Shown piece by piece: positions 47,318-53,711 of a stretch of 64,000 nt of DNA. The notes under the pieces are model-generated. The model made no database searches. It saw only the letters and a program-made list of their open reading frames with translations, and was not told where the DNA came from. Both the position numbers and the translations under genes were made by a program. Each line of letters starts with the position of its first letter. Positions within the stretch are counted from its first letter, which is position 1. The DNA comes from Allorhizobium ampelinum S4 (GTDB taxonomy: Bacteria; Pseudomonadota; Alphaproteobacteria; Rhizobiales; Rhizobiaceae): contig NC_011989.1 in NCBI RefSeq assembly GCF_000016285.1, forward strand, positions 375,001 to 439,000, in the 5' to 3' direction.

Positions 47318-47393
47318 GCCGCTTTAGCTCAGGTGGTAGAGCACATCATTCGTAATGATGGGGTCGCAGGTTCGAGTCCTGCAAGCGGCACCA
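47318..47393 (+). tRNA. tRNA-Thr (anticodon CGT)
   Basis: The 76-nt gene has acceptor stem GCCGCTT/AAGCGGC, discriminator A and an encoded CCA. The anticodon loop T-T-C-G-T-A-A gives CGT. The T-arm GGTTCGAGTCC is intact. Accessory transport genes begin right after it, but I saw no repeat of its 3' end elsewhere in the window. Confidence 0.97.
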
Positions 47394-47778
47394 CTTAAAT
47401 CCCTTAAGTTTGCAGTCGAAAACGATAGATCATAAAGGTCTCCCAGAGTTTATGTCTGCTTGAATGTCTCTCGATTTCAATTGATTGAGGAGATTTCGAC
47501 AGGCGGCGTTACCTCGGCAGTGTCTGCACCGAACCTGGGCGTCGGCACCATGACTCCAGGCGTGCTGGTCTACGCTACGCTCAGAAAAAGATTGCCGGGT
47601 GGAGGCGATTGGAGCTCAAGATCCTCTGATCTATGTCAGCAATCGCTACCTTAACGGTGTCCTAATAATATATTTTAGCCATCTTGTGAAAGTGATTTCC
47701 CCATGATTGTATAGACAACTTCATGACTGACCGCTTACGTCAGATGTGAATGCGCAGCCACTGACCGCAGGGGATTGC
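47394..47778. other. Gap between tRNA-Thr and the betaine-transport operon
   Basis: The 385 bp hold no gene I can support. A 64-codon frame at 47460-47654 has no ribosome-binding site or recognisable product. The 3' part is AT-rich (around 47655-47720) and includes a HutC-like operator, so the operon promoter is expected there. Confidence 0.5.
47707..47718. promoter_or_regulatory. HutC-type operator upstream of the ABC operon
   Basis: TTGTATAGACAA is a 12-bp near-perfect palindrome (TTGT/ACAA arms), 61 bp before the ATPase start. HutC-subfamily GntR repressors bind related TTGTAT-ATACAA-type sites. The operon encodes such a repressor as its fifth gene, so autoregulation is likely. Confidence 0.55.
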
Positions 47779-48891
47779 ATGATAACATTCGATCAAGTCA
47801 GCAAGCATTACGGCGACGCAACAGCTGCCGTTAACAGTCTTTCGCTGGTGGCTCCCACTGGCAAGCTGACCATCCTGGTTGGCCCTTCCGGCTGCGGCAA
47901 GACAACGTCTTTGCGGATGATCAACAGGCTGATTACGCCGTCGTCCGGATCTATTCTGCTGGATGGCGAACAAACCGGTCGGATGGATGTTGCTTTGTTG
48001 CGGCGCCGAATTGGTTATGTCATCCAGCATGCCGGTCTCTTCCCCCATCGCACCGTTGTACAGAACATCGCGACCACCGCGCGTCTGAACGGTGCGCCGA
48101 AACAGCAGGCGCTTCGGACTGCACATGAGCTGTTGGAGCGCGTTGGCTTGACCAGCGCTTTTGCAGATCGCTATCCCTGGCAGCTTTCGGGCGGACAGCA
48201 GCAGCGTGTCGGCGTGGCTCGGGCGCTGGCCTCCGATCCCAAGTTCATGTTGATGGACGAACCGTTCAGCGCCGTCGATCCGGTCGTGCGCGGCCAGTTG
48301 CAGGATGAGTTTCTCCGTCTTCAGCGTGACATCGGCAAAACGATTATCATGGTCACCCATGACATCGACGAGGCCCTGAAGCTCGGGGATCAAGTGGCGG
48401 TGCTGCGCTCCGGGGGGACGCTTGCGCAGATCGCAACACCGCAGGAACTTCTGGCGCGACCGGCGGATGCCTTCGTGGCAGACTTCATTGGTCGGGACCG
48501 AGGCTACCGCTTCCTGAGTTTCGCCGAATTCGGCAGCACGGTCCCTCTTGGGGTTGAACCGACGGCCACATTTGGTGCGACGCCGGAAGCCCTTCGCCAT
48601 GCTGCCACGGACCGTTGGGTTCTTGTGACCGATGCCGCGAACCGACCCATCGGCTGGGCCGATGCGCCGGGGCTTCAACAGCCTTTGCGCGAGGGTGATC
48701 TCAATCTCAGCGGGACGCTGGCACCCGAAGGCAGCAGTCTTCGCCATTTGCTCGATGCTGCGCTCAGTTCGCCTTCAGGCCGCGGCGTTGTTGTGAGTGC
48801 ATCGGGCGAACTCGTCGGTACGGTCACGCTGTCTAATGTGGTTGCGGCCATTGAGGGGGCGCGTGCCGGCCAGTTTGGAATGCAGCCATGA
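47779..48891 (+). CDS. Quaternary-amine ABC transporter ATPase (OpuCA/EgtV-like part)
   Basis: The 370-residue ATPase has Walker A V-G-P-S-G-C-G-K-T-T (about 34-43), signature [14 protein letters not shown] and Walker B F-M-L-M-D-E-P-F-S-A-V-D-P. A C-terminal extension (about 260-370) resembles a degenerate CBS pair, as in osmoprotectant transporters. It energises import of a betaine-type compound with the two permeases and the binding protein that follow. ATG 47779 is preferred because AGGGGA precedes it; a GTG 33 bp earlier is in frame. It overlaps the next gene by 4 nt. Confidence 0.93.
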   Translation: MITFDQVSKHYGDATAAVNSLSLVAPTGKLTILVGPSGCGKTTSLRMINRLITPSSGSILLDGEQTGRMDVALLRRRIGYVIQHAGLFPHRTVVQNIATTARLNGAPKQQALRTAHELLERVGLTSAFADRYPWQLSGGQQQRVGVARALASDPKFMLMDEPFSAVDPVVRGQLQDEFLRLQRDIGKTIIMVTHDIDEALKLGDQVAVLRSGGTLAQIATPQELLARPADAFVADFIGRDRGYRFLSFAEFGSTVPLGVEPTATFGATPEALRHAATDRWVLVTDAANRPIGWADAPGLQQPLREGDLNLSGTLAPEGSSLRHLLDAALSSPSGRGVVVSASGELVGTVTLSNVVAAIEGARAGQFGMQP

Positions 48892-49538
48892 GGTTCGATT
48901 GGCTCTATAATGAGTCCGGGCGGATCGCCGAGCTGTTCATCTGGCATCTCTCGCTTTCCGTCATCCCGGTTTTGATCGGCCTGCTTCTGGCTCTGCCGCT
49001 CGGCTGGTTTGCCCAGCGTGCCGGTGTGTTTCGCTCCACTCTGCTGGGTGCCGCCGGACTTCTCTATACAATTCCGTCGCTGGCGCTGTTCGTTCTGTTG
49101 CCGCTCGTGCTTGGCACGCGGATCCTCGATCCCCTGAATGTCGTCGTTGCGTTGACGGTGTATGCCTTGGCGCTTCTGGTGCGTACGGTCAGCGACGGCC
49201 TGGATTCAATTTCTCCTGATGTCCTTCAGGCCGCCAATGCCATGGGCTACCGCCGCGCGGCACGCCTTCTGACGGTGGAATTGCCGCTGGCCGTTCCTGT
49301 CATCGCGGCCGGATTGCGGGTTGCCGTGGTGTCGAATGTCAGCATCGTTTCCGTCGCCGCTCTGGTCGGCACGCCACAGCTGGGCCTTCTCTTTACGCAA
49401 GGCCTCCAGCTGCAATTCCTAACCCCGATTATCGCGGGCATCGTGCTTTGCGTGCTTTTGGCAGTGCTTCTGGATGGGCTTGTGCTGTTCATCGCGCATC
49501 GCCTGACGCCATGGCAGCCGGGGAGGATGCCGCGATGA
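48888..49538 (+). CDS. Quaternary-amine ABC transporter permease 1
   Basis: The 216-residue protein has about five to six helices and the permease loop S-P-D-V-L-Q-A-A-N-A-M-G-Y-R-R-A-x-x-L-x-x-V-E-L-P-L-A-V-P-V-I (about 103-133). This is the OpuCB/ProW-like BPD_transp_1 fold with the L-Y-T-I-P-S-L-A-L-F motif. It overlaps both neighbours by 4 nt, so the three genes are translationally coupled. Confidence 0.92.
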   Translation: MRFDWLYNESGRIAELFIWHLSLSVIPVLIGLLLALPLGWFAQRAGVFRSTLLGAAGLLYTIPSLALFVLLPLVLGTRILDPLNVVVALTVYALALLVRTVSDGLDSISPDVLQAANAMGYRRAARLLTVELPLAVPVIAAGLRVAVVSNVSIVSVAALVGTPQLGLLFTQGLQLQFLTPIIAGIVLCVLLAVLLDGLVLFIAHRLTPWQPGRMPR

Positions 49539-50212
49539 TCGACTGGTTTTCAAATCCCGCCCATTGGACCGGAGACGGTGGCGTTATTGCTCTGGTCATC
49601 CAGCATCTGGCCTATAGCGGCGCCGCACTTTTGCTGGCCTGCCTGATCGGCTTGCCCGTCGGGCTTTATGTCGGACATACCGGGCGCGGCGTGGTGTTCA
49701 TCGCCGGTCTCGCCAATGCGTTGCGATCCCTTCCGAGCCTTGGCCTTATTGTTCTCCTGGTGATCCTGTTCGGCCCCGTCTTCTCGTCCGACATGGCGTT
49801 TATCGTGCCGAGCCTCATCGTGCTGGTGCTTCTGGCTGTACCGCCGATCATGACCGGCAGCTATGCCGGTATCGCGGCGGTGGACCCGGCGGCGGTCGAT
49901 GCGGCGCGCGGCATGGGTAAGTGCCCGCTTGATATCCTGTTTGATGTCGAACTGCCTTGCGCGCTGCCGTTGATTTTTTCCGGCCTGCGCAGTGCAACGC
50001 TTCAGATCATCTCAACTGCAACGATTGCCGCTTATGTCTCCCTTGGCGGCTTGGGGCGTCTTATTATCGATGGCCGGGCGCAACACGATTATTACCAGAT
50101 GGCGGCAGGCGCTGTTCTTGTCGGTGCGCTTGCGCTGACGGTCGATCTTTTGATCGGCGTCATATCGAGGTTCACGGTCTCGCCCGGACTGACGCGCCGC
50201 CTGAAACGGTAG
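49535..50212 (+). CDS. Quaternary-amine ABC transporter permease 2
   Basis: The 225-residue protein is a second OpuCD-like permease, with L-R-S-L-P-S-L-G-L-I near residues 65-74. The coupling loop is D-P-A-A-V-D-A-A-R-G-M-G (about 115-126), then V-E-L-P-C-A-L-P-L-I. The ATG at 49535 overlaps the previous stop (ATGA); the frame is open further upstream but would run within the first permease gene. Confidence 0.92.
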   Translation: MIDWFSNPAHWTGDGGVIALVIQHLAYSGAALLLACLIGLPVGLYVGHTGRGVVFIAGLANALRSLPSLGLIVLLVILFGPVFSSDMAFIVPSLIVLVLLAVPPIMTGSYAGIAAVDPAAVDAARGMGKCPLDILFDVELPCALPLIFSGLRSATLQIISTATIAAYVSLGGLGRLIIDGRAQHDYYQMAAGAVLVGALALTVDLLIGVISRFTVSPGLTRRLKR

Positions 50213-50275
50213 CGCTGACGATGCAATAACGACTTTTCACCCTATGTCTCGATAAGCAACACAGGAGAAGCTCGC

Positions 50276-51190
50276 ATGGCATTCAGGATCATCACCGCCG
50301 TCAGCGCTTTCGCGCTCATGACCCTTTCAGCCGCATCAGCGCTTGCTGCAGGCGATCCGCTGGCGGCTCCGCCTACTGAGAGATCCGATACCAAGACGAT
50401 TATCATCGGTTCTGCGGATTTCCCCGAGAGCCAGCTTCTGGCGACACTCTACGCCAAGGCCTTGACCGCTAAGGGAGTTGCGGTTGAAACAAAATTGAAT
50501 ATCGGAAGCCGCGAGGTCTATATGCCAGCCTTGCTCGACGGATCAATCGATCTCCTGCCGGAATATGCGGGCGCGGCATTGAGCTATCTCGACAAGAAAG
50601 CCACAGCCCATACGCCAGACGATGTGGCGGCGGCCCTCAAGGCGGCCTTGCCGAAGGGCGTGTCGATGCTGACACCGTCAGCGGCGCAGGATTCGGACGG
50701 CGTTGCGGTGACACGCGCGACGGCCGAGAAATACAAACTGAAGACGATTGCCGATCTCGCCCCGGTTGCTTCCGAATTCGTGCTTGGCGGTCCCCCGGAA
50801 TGGAAGACGCGCAAGGAAGGCATTATCGGCCTGAAGGAGGTCTATGGGCTGGAGTTCAAGTCGTTGAAGGCGCTTGATGTCGGTGGCCCGCTGACGTTGT
50901 CGGCACTCGTCAATGGTCAGATACAGGCCGCAAACCTGTTTTCGACCGATCCTGCCATCGCGACGAACGATCTGGTCATGCTGGAAGATGTCAAAAACCT
51001 CTTTCCTGCCCAGAATGTGGTTCCTGTGATCGCCACTGCGAAAGTCAGTGAGACCGTGGCAAAGACGCTCGATGCAGTATCAGCCGCCCTGACCACAAAG
51101 GATCTCGTTGTTATGAACGGCCGTCTGGGCAATCATGACAGTTTCGATGTGGTCGCCGGCGACTGGCTTGCGCAACACAAGCTGAACTGA
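50276..51190 (+). CDS. Betaine-type substrate-binding protein (OpuBC/EgtU-like)
   Basis: The 304-residue exported protein has a signal peptide (about 1-24, A-S-A-L-A-A) and an OpuAC-type binding domain: I-I-I-G-S-A-D-F-P-E-S-Q (about 42-53), D-L-L-P-E-Y-A-G-A-A-L (about 93-103) and P-P-E-W-K-T-R-K-E-G-I-I-G-L near 175-188. These positions form the quaternary-ammonium pocket in the family, which includes binding proteins for choline, glycine betaine, carnitine and ergothioneine (EgtU). The adjacent lyase suggests a histidine betaine rather than an osmoprotectant. Confidence 0.88.
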   Translation: MAFRIITAVSAFALMTLSAASALAAGDPLAAPPTERSDTKTIIIGSADFPESQLLATLYAKALTAKGVAVETKLNIGSREVYMPALLDGSIDLLPEYAGAALSYLDKKATAHTPDDVAAALKAALPKGVSMLTPSAAQDSDGVAVTRATAEKYKLKTIADLAPVASEFVLGGPPEWKTRKEGIIGLKEVYGLEFKSLKALDVGGPLTLSALVNGQIQAANLFSTDPAIATNDLVMLEDVKNLFPAQNVVPVIATAKVSETVAKTLDAVSAALTTKDLVVMNGRLGNHDSFDVVAGDWLAQHKLN

Positions 51191-51336
51191 TGTGGGGTTG
51201 GCAGGCGAGCTGCATCCGCTGTTCGCCTGCCAACGCCCGGGGCCTACCAGCGACCGGGCGCCTGATATCCAGATATGTATGCCTATCGACGACTTCATGG
51301 TTATGGATCGTGACACAGAATTTTTCCGGGAACGTG

Positions 51337-52095
51337 ATGCCTCTGGTCCAGAAAGATGCGGAGATCGGGCAGGAGGGCCACCCTCCTGCCACGTTGCTCT
51401 CCGCCACGCCGCTTTATGTCAAATTGAAAGACTATGTTCGCAGCCGTGTCGAAACCGGTGAGTGGAAGATCGGCCAGCGCGTTCCATCGGAAAACGAGTT
51501 GGTCGGCATTCTCGGGGTGAGCCGGATGACGGCCAATCGCGCCCTGCGGGAACTGGCGGACGAAGGGCTTGTGGTGCGTCTGCGCGGCAAAGGTTCCTTT
51601 GTGGCGACCAGGAAACGAACTTCGCAGTTTCAGAGCGTGCCCAACATTGCTGATGAGATCCGTCGCAACGGTGGCATTCATAGCGCAAGGGTGATCCTGC
51701 TTCAGATGGAAGCCTGTGGCGAGGAACTTGCCGAAGCTCTGGGCGTATCACCCGCAGACCCGGTGGCGCATTCGATTATCATGCATGCCGAAGATGGACT
51801 TCCGATGCAGATCGAGGATCGTTTCGTCAATCCCGGCTGCGCGCCTGATTATCTGTATCAGGATTTCAATGCCGTCACGCCAAATGGCTACCTGACGGAG
51901 GTCGCGCCGATCGTCAAGGCGGAGCAGCATATCGAATCGGTCAATGCGCAGGCCTGGGAATGCAAGCTTTTGGCGATCCCGAAATCCGAACCATGCCTGC
52001 TTGTGCGCCGCCGTACATGGTCGGTTGATGGCATCGTCTCTTCTGTCCGCTTGCTCTATCCCGGCAGCCGCTATCGTCTTTACAGCAGCACGTGA
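51337..52095 (+). CDS. GntR-family repressor, HutC subfamily
   Basis: The 252-residue regulator has a winged helix (about 28-95: P-L-Y-V-K-L-K-D-Y-V, V-P-S-E-N-E-L, S-R-M-T-A-N-R-A-L-R-E-L, G-L-V-x-R-x-x-G-K-G-S-F-V-A). A UTRA ligand-binding domain follows (about 115-250). HutC itself senses urocanate. Here the ligand may be the related product of the following lyase, such as thiourocanate. ATG 51337 is chosen at the point where the family begins; the frame is open for 49 codons more without homology. A matching operator lies before the ABC genes. Confidence 0.85.
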   Translation: MPLVQKDAEIGQEGHPPATLLSATPLYVKLKDYVRSRVETGEWKIGQRVPSENELVGILGVSRMTANRALRELADEGLVVRLRGKGSFVATRKRTSQFQSVPNIADEIRRNGGIHSARVILLQMEACGEELAEALGVSPADPVAHSIIMHAEDGLPMQIEDRFVNPGCAPDYLYQDFNAVTPNGYLTEVAPIVKAEQHIESVNAQAWECKLLAIPKSEPCLLVRRRTWSVDGIVSSVRLLYPGSRYRLYSST

Positions 52096-52223
52096 GGCCC
52101 TGCCTAAATGCTGAGCTCTGACTGATTTCAAGGCATCTTGGTTTCAAGGCCAGACGGTTCCAAGAATGGAGAAACGCCTTTGTCCATCGTTGCATCACGG
52201 CCCATGCCCTTCAGGAGAATTTC

Positions 52224-53711
52224 ATGAGCGTTTTTCTTGATGACGGGCTGGATTGGCGCGCTGTTGCGCGTGTCGGCGAGGGGGAGGTACTTTCCCTCTC
52301 CGACAATGCCTATCGACGCATCGATCGGGCAAGCCAGATCCTGGATCGTATCGTGGAGAGCGGTGTCCGCGCCTATGGCATCACGACCGGTATCGGCGCC
52401 CTTTCGGATACGGTTGTCGATCGCGCAACGCAGGGCCGGCTGTCACGCGGGATTGTCCTCAGCCATGCCTGCGGCATCGGTCCGTTGCTGGATGCGCGTG
52501 AGGTGCGGGCTATCATGGCGGCTCAGATCGCCAATTTCGCCCACGGCCATTCCGGTGTCCGGCGCGATATCGTCTCGCATCTGTTGACGTTTTTAGAGCG
52601 GGATTGCATTCCCGATGTTCCGTCGCGGGGGTCTGCCGGTTATCTGACCCACAACGCCCATACCGGGCTTGTGCTGATCGGTGAGGGGCAAGCGCGCGTC
52701 GGTGGTCATCCTTTCAACGGGCGGGAGGCGTTGGCTCAGATCGGTCTTCAACCGCTGGTGCTGGGCGCCAAGGAAGGGTTGAGCCTCGTCAACGGCACAG
52801 CATGTGCAACCGGCCTGTCGAGTGTGGCGCTGGCCCGCGCCGCGCACCTGCTCGACTGGGCGGATGCTATCGCGGCGCTGACGCTTGAAGCGGCTGGGTG
52901 CCAGATGGATGCCTTCAATGAAGCCGTTCTCGCCCTGCGTCCTTCAAAGGGTATTGCGGCTGTCGGGGCAGCGCTTCGGGCCAGGCTCCAGGGCAGCGGA
53001 CTGATTGCTGCCGCGCTCGGCAGGCGGACCCAGGATGCCCTAAGCTTGCGGGCCGTGCCACATGCCCACGGTGCCGCGCGTGACGTCTTCGATGCTTGCG
53101 CGGGGATCGTTGATCGTGAACTTGCCTCTGCCACGGATAATCCGGCGATCCTTGGCACGCCAGAACAGCCCATCGTTTCATCACAGGCCCATGCTGTCGC
53201 CTCGGCGCAGGGTCAGGCAGCCGATAGTCTGGCGATTGCCATTGCGCAGATCGCAGCCATGAGTGAACGTCGGATCGACCGGCTCGTCAATCCGTTGGTG
53301 AGTGGCTTACCGCCCTTCCTCGCCACCGATGCCGGAAGCCATTCCGGCTTGATGATCGCTCAATATACGGCGGCGGCTCTTGTCGGCGACAATCGCCGCC
53401 TTGCGGCCCCAGCTTCTACCGATGGCGGTTTGACCTCCGGTCTGCAGGAGGATTTCCTGGCCCATCCCACGGCAGCCGCCAACAAGCTGCTCGCGGTCCT
53501 CGACAATGCCGAGTATATTCTGGCGATTGAATGGATGGCGGGAGCGCAGGCCCATGATTTCCTCGCAGGTGCCGGGCAGCGAGCAGCGGGAACCAATGCG
53601 CTTTACAGTATGGTTCGCGAGCACCTCCCGCCCTATTCAGACGACCGGCCACTTTCGGGAGACATTGAAAAGGTTCGCGCCCTCTTGAGAGAGCAGGCTC
53701 CACCACATTGA
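52224..53711 (+). CDS. Histidine-ammonia-lyase homologue lacking the MIO triad (predicted ergothionase)
   Basis: The 495-residue protein keeps the fold and many motifs of aromatic ammonia-lyases: Y-G-I-T-T-G-I-G (about 51-58), L-V-N-G-T, Q-D-x-x-S-L-R, T-D-N-P and L-Q-E-D. The normal G-S-V-G-A-S-G-D-L-A-P-L-A-H segment is shortened to G-S-A-G-Y-L-T-H-N-A-H, so the Ala-Ser-Gly that cyclises to the MIO cofactor is missing. The usual Tyr in Q-D-P-Y-S-L-R is Leu. Ergothionases, which eliminate trimethylamine from ergothioneine, are MIO-free members of this superfamily. With the betaine transporter beside it, ergothioneine or hercynine is the best substrate guess. A non-enzymatic paralogue is the alternative. 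Confidence 0.75.
   Translation: MSVFLDDGLDWRAVARVGEGEVLSLSDNAYRRIDRASQILDRIVESGVRAYGITTGIGALSDTVVDRATQGRLSRGIVLSHACGIGPLLDAREVRAIMAAQIANFAHGHSGVRRDIVSHLLTFLERDCIPDVPSRGSAGYLTHNAHTGLVLIGEGQARVGGHPFNGREALAQIGLQPLVLGAKEGLSLVNGTACATGLSSVALARAAHLLDWADAIAALTLEAAGCQMDAFNEAVLALRPSKGIAAVGAALRARLQGSGLIAAALGRRTQDALSLRAVPHAHGAARDVFDACAGIVDRELASATDNPAILGTPEQPIVSSQAHAVASAQGQAADSLAIAIAQIAAMSERRIDRLVNPLVSGLPPFLATDAGSHSGLMIAQYTAAALVGDNRRLAAPASTDGGLTSGLQEDFLAHPTAAANKLLAVLDNAEYILAIEWMAGAQAHDFLAGAGQRAAGTNALYSMVREHLPPYSDDRPLSGDIEKVRALLREQAPPH

Follow-up and report, generated by a model that had tools for sequence, protein, structure and literature searches.

The window analysed here is a stretch of 64,000 nucleotides of Allorhizobium ampelinum S4 (NC_011989.1, positions 375,001 to 439,000; contig C6), and it contains, from a tRNA-Thr gene (47318-47393) to position 53711, six genes on the + strand in the order ATP-binding cassette (ABC) transporter ATPase, permease, permease, periplasmic binding protein, HutC-family repressor and lyase. 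Ergothioneine is made from the trimethylhistidine hercynine, and we consider it probable, at roughly two chances in three, that this operon imports hercynine and yields trimethylamine and urocanate, thereby feeding the histidine utilization (hut) pathway. In the proposed scheme, the OpuBC-type ABC transporter would import hercynine (Nα,Nα,Nα-trimethyl-L-histidine) and the lyase, which lacks the 4-methylideneimidazole-5-one (MIO) triad, would split it into trimethylamine and trans-urocanate. The enzymes HutU, HutI, HutF and HutG encoded on contig C5 would degrade urocanate to glutamate, and urocanate would also free the HutC-type repressor from the operator-like site TTGTATAGACAA, turning the operon on. 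The genes, the loss of the triad, the histidase residues retained, the operator-like site and the conserved company of such lyases are all read directly from the DNA.

The lyase gene (52224-53711, + strand; PF00221, 457 bits) encodes an MIO-free aromatic amino acid lyase, predicted to be a hercynine trimethylamine-lyase. The protein lacks the triad Ala-Ser-Gly and shows GSAGYLTHNAH at the place of the histidase GSVGASGDLAPLAH, which agrees with an earlier note on this DNA that had described a histidine-ammonia-lyase homologue without the MIO triad. Its score against the histidase equivalog TIGR01225 is 456 bits, under the cut-off of 539. Histidases need MIO for the departure of the amino group; trimethylamine leaves neutral from a quaternary nitrogen, so that the MIO electrophile would not be needed. 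The ergothionase of Treponema denticola (6s7j), a member of the same superfamily, is likewise MIO-free and is described as releasing trimethylamine (PMC13405746). In searches of the class (289 genomes) and the phylum (398 genomes), the 28 matches fetched in the range of 46-77% identity are all MIO-free and those fetched at 40% or less carry the triad, which leaves a gap between the two sets among the fetched loci. A scan of named genomes gave 591 stretches, the best 80 of which (the 80 loci) were kept; they were picked by similarity and hence give no measure of frequency. The best lyase is MIO-free in 80 of these 80. The ratio of nonsynonymous to synonymous substitution rates (dN/dS) of the lyase gene is 0.13 against the 96%-identical copy of Agrobacterium vitis CG118 (L047) and 0.14 against that of Rhizobium etli, similar to the values of the window's transporter genes (0.04-0.12). 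The gene is under purifying selection and, because its dN/dS is low like that of the transporter genes, is not decayed; a decayed or inactive paralogue was ruled out by the value of 0.13 together with the conserved catalytic residues. A histidase working without MIO, or a non-catalytic HutH paralogue, would fit the plasmid records, which annotate such lyases as histidine ammonia-lyase, and the HutC regulons, where HutH paralogues and transporters, often several, are assigned to histidine (PMC5343134). We give this explanation very little credence, since the triad is absent from the best lyase of each of the 80 loci, the catalytic residues are largely conserved and dN/dS is low.

The active site was compared in an alignment of 179 sequences, 111 without the triad and 68 with it; the motif filter left out five of 56 rows tried (L008, L009, L010, L132 and L133), all five MIO-free with Tyr. 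Residue numbers are those which we take to be PpHAL numbering. Gln277, Arg283 and Glu414 are conserved in all 179 rows, and Tyr53 in 110 of the 111 MIO-free rows (the other shows a gap, as does one of the 68 MIO rows); His83 and Asn195 are found in 108 and 105 MIO-free rows, respectively. Position 280 is Tyr in 68/68 MIO rows and Leu in 110/111 MIO-free rows, and position 329 is Phe in 68/68 MIO rows and Ala or Pro in 104/111 MIO-free rows. The window lyase therefore resembles HutH in its fold, in PF00221 and in most active-site residues, and differs from it in lacking the triad and in having Leu for Tyr280 and Ala for Phe329. A 20-sequence alignment shows no variation at Tyr140 and Tyr381. 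The changes at Tyr280 and Phe329 and the two tyrosines would fit room and an aromatic box for the trimethylammonium group, and histidase-like ring residues beside such an enlarged amine pocket suggest hercynine as the substrate. The position of the ergothionase Lys, presumably the catalytic Lys384 of the T. denticola enzyme, shows Val in 65 of 68 MIO rows, Tyr in 107 of 111 MIO-free rows and Lys in four: 6s7j, Martelella, Rhizobium NXC14 and one Salinicola protein. The window lyase has Tyr381 there, where 6s7j has Lys, and 6s7j also keeps Phe at the position of Phe329.

These residues bear on the other substrate that the earlier note had offered, ergothioneine, which the operon would take up and the lyase, as an ergothionase, would convert to thiourocanate and trimethylamine. 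By phmmer, the best solved structures for the window lyase are histidases (7tqr 319 bits, 6v6h 258 and 1b8f 246) and 6s7j reaches 195 bits, rank 14 of 39 distinct sequences; in fragment and profile searches of solved structures, 6s7j is not among the matches listed. When the NXC14 protein is the query, 6s7j is the best solved match (270 vs 240 bits), which marks the Lys group, and not that of the window, as ergothionase-like. Trees put the window's clan and the Lys group apart: the careful 44-row tree without the row ownC1 shows three groups, with support of 99/88 for the clan of the window and of 100/100 for the split between MIO sequences and the rest. In the larger tree, where ergothionase, the Klebsiella and Priestia lyases and ownC1 have long branches, the MIO label needs two changes, owing to the single long row ownC1; the trees are unrooted, so one MIO loss and two cannot be told apart. 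The window lyase belongs to a separate MIO-free clan, in which Tyr stands where histidases have mostly Val and ergothionases Lys, and the relatives of 6s7j form a clan of their own. The earlier note's pair of substrates most likely narrows to hercynine; ergothioneine was set aside by the residues (Tyr and not the Lys of 6s7j and three ergothionase-like proteins), the nearest solved structure, the tree and the genome content, which includes one urocanase only, and related lyases elsewhere are linked to hutU. On these grounds we hold ergothioneine breakdown to be quite improbable. An ergothioneine sulfonate pathway was reportedly found in Agrobacterium radiobacter (Yan and colleagues, 2022, as cited in PMC13405746), and a relative of the window's lyase is present in Rhizobium rhizogenes (L050), but the window lyase does not have the Lys of the ergothionase clan and the company is one of ordinary hut genes, so we attach hardly any weight to an ergothioneine sulfonate lyase.

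The genome content agrees with hercynine as the substrate. Besides a single urocanase, the genome shows one complete hut cluster, on contig C5, with HutD, HutU, HutG, HutH, HutI, HutF, HutC and a polar-amino-acid transporter, so that urocanate from the operon could be degraded fully. Thiourocanate hydratase is a urocanase homologue, and no second urocanase homologue that could serve as one was found in this genome. In the 398-genome phylum sample, urocanase is present in 23 of 23 genomes with a window-type lyase (at least 46% identity, with the more distant Klebsiella-type lineage outside the count) vs 132 of 375 without one (Fisher p 1.3e-10); alone this count is weak, because it carries no correction for relatedness and is confounded by true histidases. 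The lyase gene lies within 13 kb of urocanase in 18 of the 23 genomes (counted by eye). Two urocanase matches were seen in eight genomes among the rows listed: G322, G380 and G519, which belong to one genus of the window's family, and G341, G571, G384, G554 and G590.

In Rhizobium, Burkholderia, Pseudomonas and Enterobacterales, related lyases have hut enzymes or genes of the hutC type as neighbours, and more distant members of the clan are on Klebsiella and Priestia plasmids. Loci were annotated with 19 reference proteins and some stretches end at contig ends, so that some genes would be missed. Within the 80 loci, hutU is present in 36, hutI in 41, hutG in 43, hutF in 35, a HutC-type gene in 57 and an MIO histidase in 36, and 48 loci carry at least one of hutU, hutI, hutG and hutF. 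A betaine-type transporter gene adjoins the lyase in 31 loci (at least 40% identity); a 32nd, L057, rests on a 30%-identical ATPase. The R. etli CFN 42 relative, 77% identical, is located after a polar-amino-acid transporter, whose binding protein is PF00497, and beside hutU-G-H-I-F and two hutC genes. In the Pseudomonas loci, the lyase mostly follows a ProU-like ATPase and a permease, between hutU and hutH-hutI-hutG; in the one locus checked, L077, the lyase is preceded by a binding protein with the same glycine-betaine-type OpuAC domain as in the window (212 bits). Most informative are clusters of hutU, hutI and a clan lyase with no MIO histidase in the stretch, seen in four of the 80 loci (L090, L098, L107 and L126), on a Klebsiella plasmid (L155) and on a Priestia plasmid (L154). 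The Klebsiella pneumoniae plasmid NZ_LR890649 (L155:1-13274) shows hutG-hutI-permease-hutU divergent from ATPase-permease-permease-binding protein-lyase, followed by hutD, hutC and hutF; the Priestia plasmid contains hutU, hutI, an agmatinase-family gene, two major facilitator superfamily genes and the lyase. In eight genomes whose cluster showed no MIO histidase, a search outside the cluster found one in six and a broken one in Polaromonas; in Salinicola (L126) the only MIO lyase found is from a different subfamily than hutH. In the Polaromonas genome (L083), the true histidase is broken at G661:C1:3802204-3803683 while the MIO-free lyase is intact. Salinicola corii (L126:2855-20612) shows a Tyr-type lyase within hutC-F-U-I-G, adjoining a Lys-type lyase and a betaine-type transporter behind a TTGTATATACAA site.

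The transporter of the window is also found with other lyases. The nearest whole-operon relative found is that of A. vitis CG118, 94-98% identical gene by gene. The transporter of the Klebsiella plasmid is 60% (ATPase), 63% and 62% (permeases) and 58% (binding protein) identical to that of the window, and on a Rhizobium beringeri plasmid (L160) the four transporter proteins are 71-73% identical; permease 1 of L160 has an interrupted reading frame (L160:6518-7157). In A. vitis, Klebsiella and R. beringeri alike, this transporter type accompanies an MIO-free lyase, and the Klebsiella and R. beringeri plasmids share with the window the order ATPase-permease-permease-binding protein ahead of the lyase. 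They differ from it in their lyase, which belongs to another lineage (38% and 36% identical to the window's, respectively), whereas the window pairs the transporter with the lyase common in Rhizobium; the Klebsiella genes, moreover, are within a hut cluster of U, I, G, F, C and D. Two lyase lineages beside one transporter type suggest a single substrate. The window's binding protein matches 195 plasmid records (E <= 1e-40), 163 of them Klebsiella; one record of the Klebsiella-type arrangement was detailed, and coordinates place the lyase beside the binding protein in three more. Its nearest solved structures are Lmo1422 (96 bits) and the ergothioneine-binding EgtUC (92 bits), and its binding domain is homologous to that of the EgtU ergothioneine transporter. 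The affinity of EgtUC for hercynine is described as about 10,000 times lower than that for ergothioneine (PMC9732360), so this kinship does not settle the ligand.

The site TTGTATAGACAA (47707-47718, no strand assigned), 60 nt upstream of the likely ATG of the ATPase gene, was identified by sequence match and is the only exact match to the operator in the window; its first base is the position at which the earlier note had begun the operon. HutC is described as binding TGTA-N2-TACA and as being released by urocanate (PMC12977541), and the TGTA-TA-GACA at 47708-47717 is one base off this Pseudomonas consensus. The 12-mer of the window is identical to sites beside hut genes in two other loci (L084 and L156). 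The degenerate form TTGTNTANACAA shows 25 occurrences in 2.15 Mb of fetched loci, versus a mean of 0.33 in three block shuffles. Twenty exact sites belong to 19 of the 80 loci: eight are at the start of a transporter-lyase operon, four between hutC and hutH, two before hutU, one between hutI and hutF, one before a Lys-type lyase, one at 354 nt from a hutC-type gene and three inside predicted open reading frames.

Several results weigh against hercynine import and breakdown as set out above. The exact TTGTNTANACAA is found in only those 19 of 80 loci, and R. etli (L004) and R. beringeri (L160) show no operator even with one mismatch. The predicted model of the lyase is confident (mean predicted local distance difference test score, pLDDT, 88, with the loop 401-411 under 50 in the monomer) and has the lyase fold over its whole length, but 6s7j is 16th by Foldseek E-value and 11th by Z in the fold comparison, the Z-scores being 42.1 for 6s7j, 42.8 for 1b8f and 44.5 for the top histidase; differences below 1 are ties, and the comparison confirms the lyase fold without clearly favouring histidase over ergothionase. 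The lyases of Klebsiella and Priestia are only 38% and 40% identical to that of the window and have long branches, and the Klebsiella lyase has Gly for Asn195. The lyase is unlinked to hutU in five of the 23 genomes, that of the window included; most of the clusters and genomes seen also have a true histidase, so that urocanase is expected anyway; and four of the 23 (G322, G380, G519 and G341) have two urocanase matches and may thus have a thiourocanate hydratase. The binding-protein type also occurs without the lyase, in Rhizobium lusitanum (L161, 84% identical) and in Agrobacterium tumefaciens (L162), there beside a flavin oxidoreductase; this also tells against the single substrate suggested by the shared transporter type. 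Eleven of the 80 loci, four of them Mesorhizobium, are without any hut enzyme or adjacent transporter as judged with the references used; one of the eleven, L047, has the window's own arrangement, with hutC between transporter and lyase. Lastly, a transporter of the polar-amino-acid type, and not of the betaine type, adjoins the lyase in 31 of the 80 loci (at least 40% identity). This last count also speaks for another N-substituted histidine as substrate, such as Nα,Nα-dimethylhistidine or a different histidine conjugate, which would still give urocanate, and so does a putative monomeric sarcosine oxidase/N-methyltryptophan oxidase gene (named by sequence look) directly after the lyase in eight of the 80 loci (L048, L050-L055 and L064) and in L007 (11507-12682). 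The oxidase hints at N-methylated amino acids and could demethylate N-methylhistidines. By general chemistry, however, secondary and tertiary amines, when protonated, leave less readily in the absence of MIO, and in another 31 of the 80 loci the transporter is of the betaine type, so that an N-substituted histidine other than hercynine appears unlikely.

The operon resembles known hut systems in part. Pseudomonas fluorescens SBW25 is described as having hutTu, hutXWV and hutH1 between hutU and hutH (PMC8871633), and by its gene position we take hutH1 to be a lyase of this clan. The Pseudomonas HutXWV-HutH1 module, with a similar one in Sinorhizobium meliloti 4H41 (L075), shares with the window an MIO-free lyase of the same clan, an OpuAC-domain ABC transporter and a HutC-controlled hut setting. 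It differs in having a transporter of another branch (ATPase 43-46% and permease 27-29% identical to those of the window) and in being inside the hut operon, whereas the operon of the window is apart from hut and has its own HutC. PA5093 is presumably a histidase paralogue. The same gene is called hutG in PMC12772324. More broadly, we lean, on balance, towards a third branch of the aromatic amino acid lyases, distinct in function and made up of hercynine trimethylamine-lyases that span Pseudomonadota and reach Bacillota. The second HutH of many hut loci, with its betaine or polar-amino-acid ABC transporter, would then be a module feeding histidine betaine into histidine catabolism, plasmid-mobile also in Klebsiella, and the diagnostic residue would be Tyr in the hercynine lyases, as against Lys in the ergothionases and, for the most part, Val in the histidases. 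If this holds, many genomes carry a histidase annotation that is wrong for this gene type; the unassigned second "histidase" gene of hut clusters, the unexplained hutH1 and some of what hutXWV does in a model hut operon are accounted for; a methylated betaine can enter catabolism through hut; and trimethylamine has a source in many bacteria of soil and plants. Titles and the starts of abstracts in the open-licence literature of PubMed Central, a scope mostly outside subscription journals, revealed no bacterial route of hercynine breakdown.

The remaining genes of the operon, all on the + strand, have the families and the order given in the earlier note. The ATPase gene, of the ProV/OpuA type (47779-48891; PF00005), has a reading frame open from a GTG at 47746 and a likely ATG at 47779, and its product scores 291 bits against the ProV subfamily model, under the cut-off of 327. 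It is followed by the genes of permease 1 (48888-49538) and permease 2 (49535-50212), both PF00528, and the 4-nt ATGA overlaps that had been noted among the first three genes are at 48888-48891 and 49535-49538. The binding protein gene (50276-51190) encodes an OpuAC domain (PF04069, 166 bits), in keeping with the OpuBC type assigned earlier, and the predicted ligand of its product is hercynine. The repressor gene (51337, or an earlier start, to 52095) encodes GntR and UTRA domains (PF00392 and PF07702), and the product passes the HutC model TIGR02018 with 275 bits (cut-off 220), as expected from its earlier placement in the HutC subfamily. No second copy of the tRNA-Thr 3' end, as sought for an island at this tRNA, was found within the window, and scans for sigma-70 promoters and terminators gave nothing better than shuffles.

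The genome gives three matches to the lyase: the window's own, the C5 histidase and, encoded on C1, an MIO lyase. The last (L046:5493-9855) has an intact MIO triad and adjoins genes for a putative amidohydrolase and an M20 peptidase, named by sequence look. In A. tumefaciens (L162:8934-10262) and R. lusitanum (L161:5091-6437), the OpuBC-type binding protein has LLM-class flavin oxidoreductases beside it or nearby, and a 42% relative is within the hut cluster of the window's own genome (L045:12459-13820). Ergothionase-like Lys-type lyases are found with HutC, an OpuAC-type binding protein, ornithine cyclodeaminase, a PhnD-type protein and ABC genes on the NXC14 plasmid (L159:6216-13700) and in Martelella (L158:5977-13578); these clusters are the better candidates for a rhizobial ergothioneine operon. 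The Lys-type lyase is present on 70 plasmid records (E <= 1e-90), of which 67 belong to Rhizobium.

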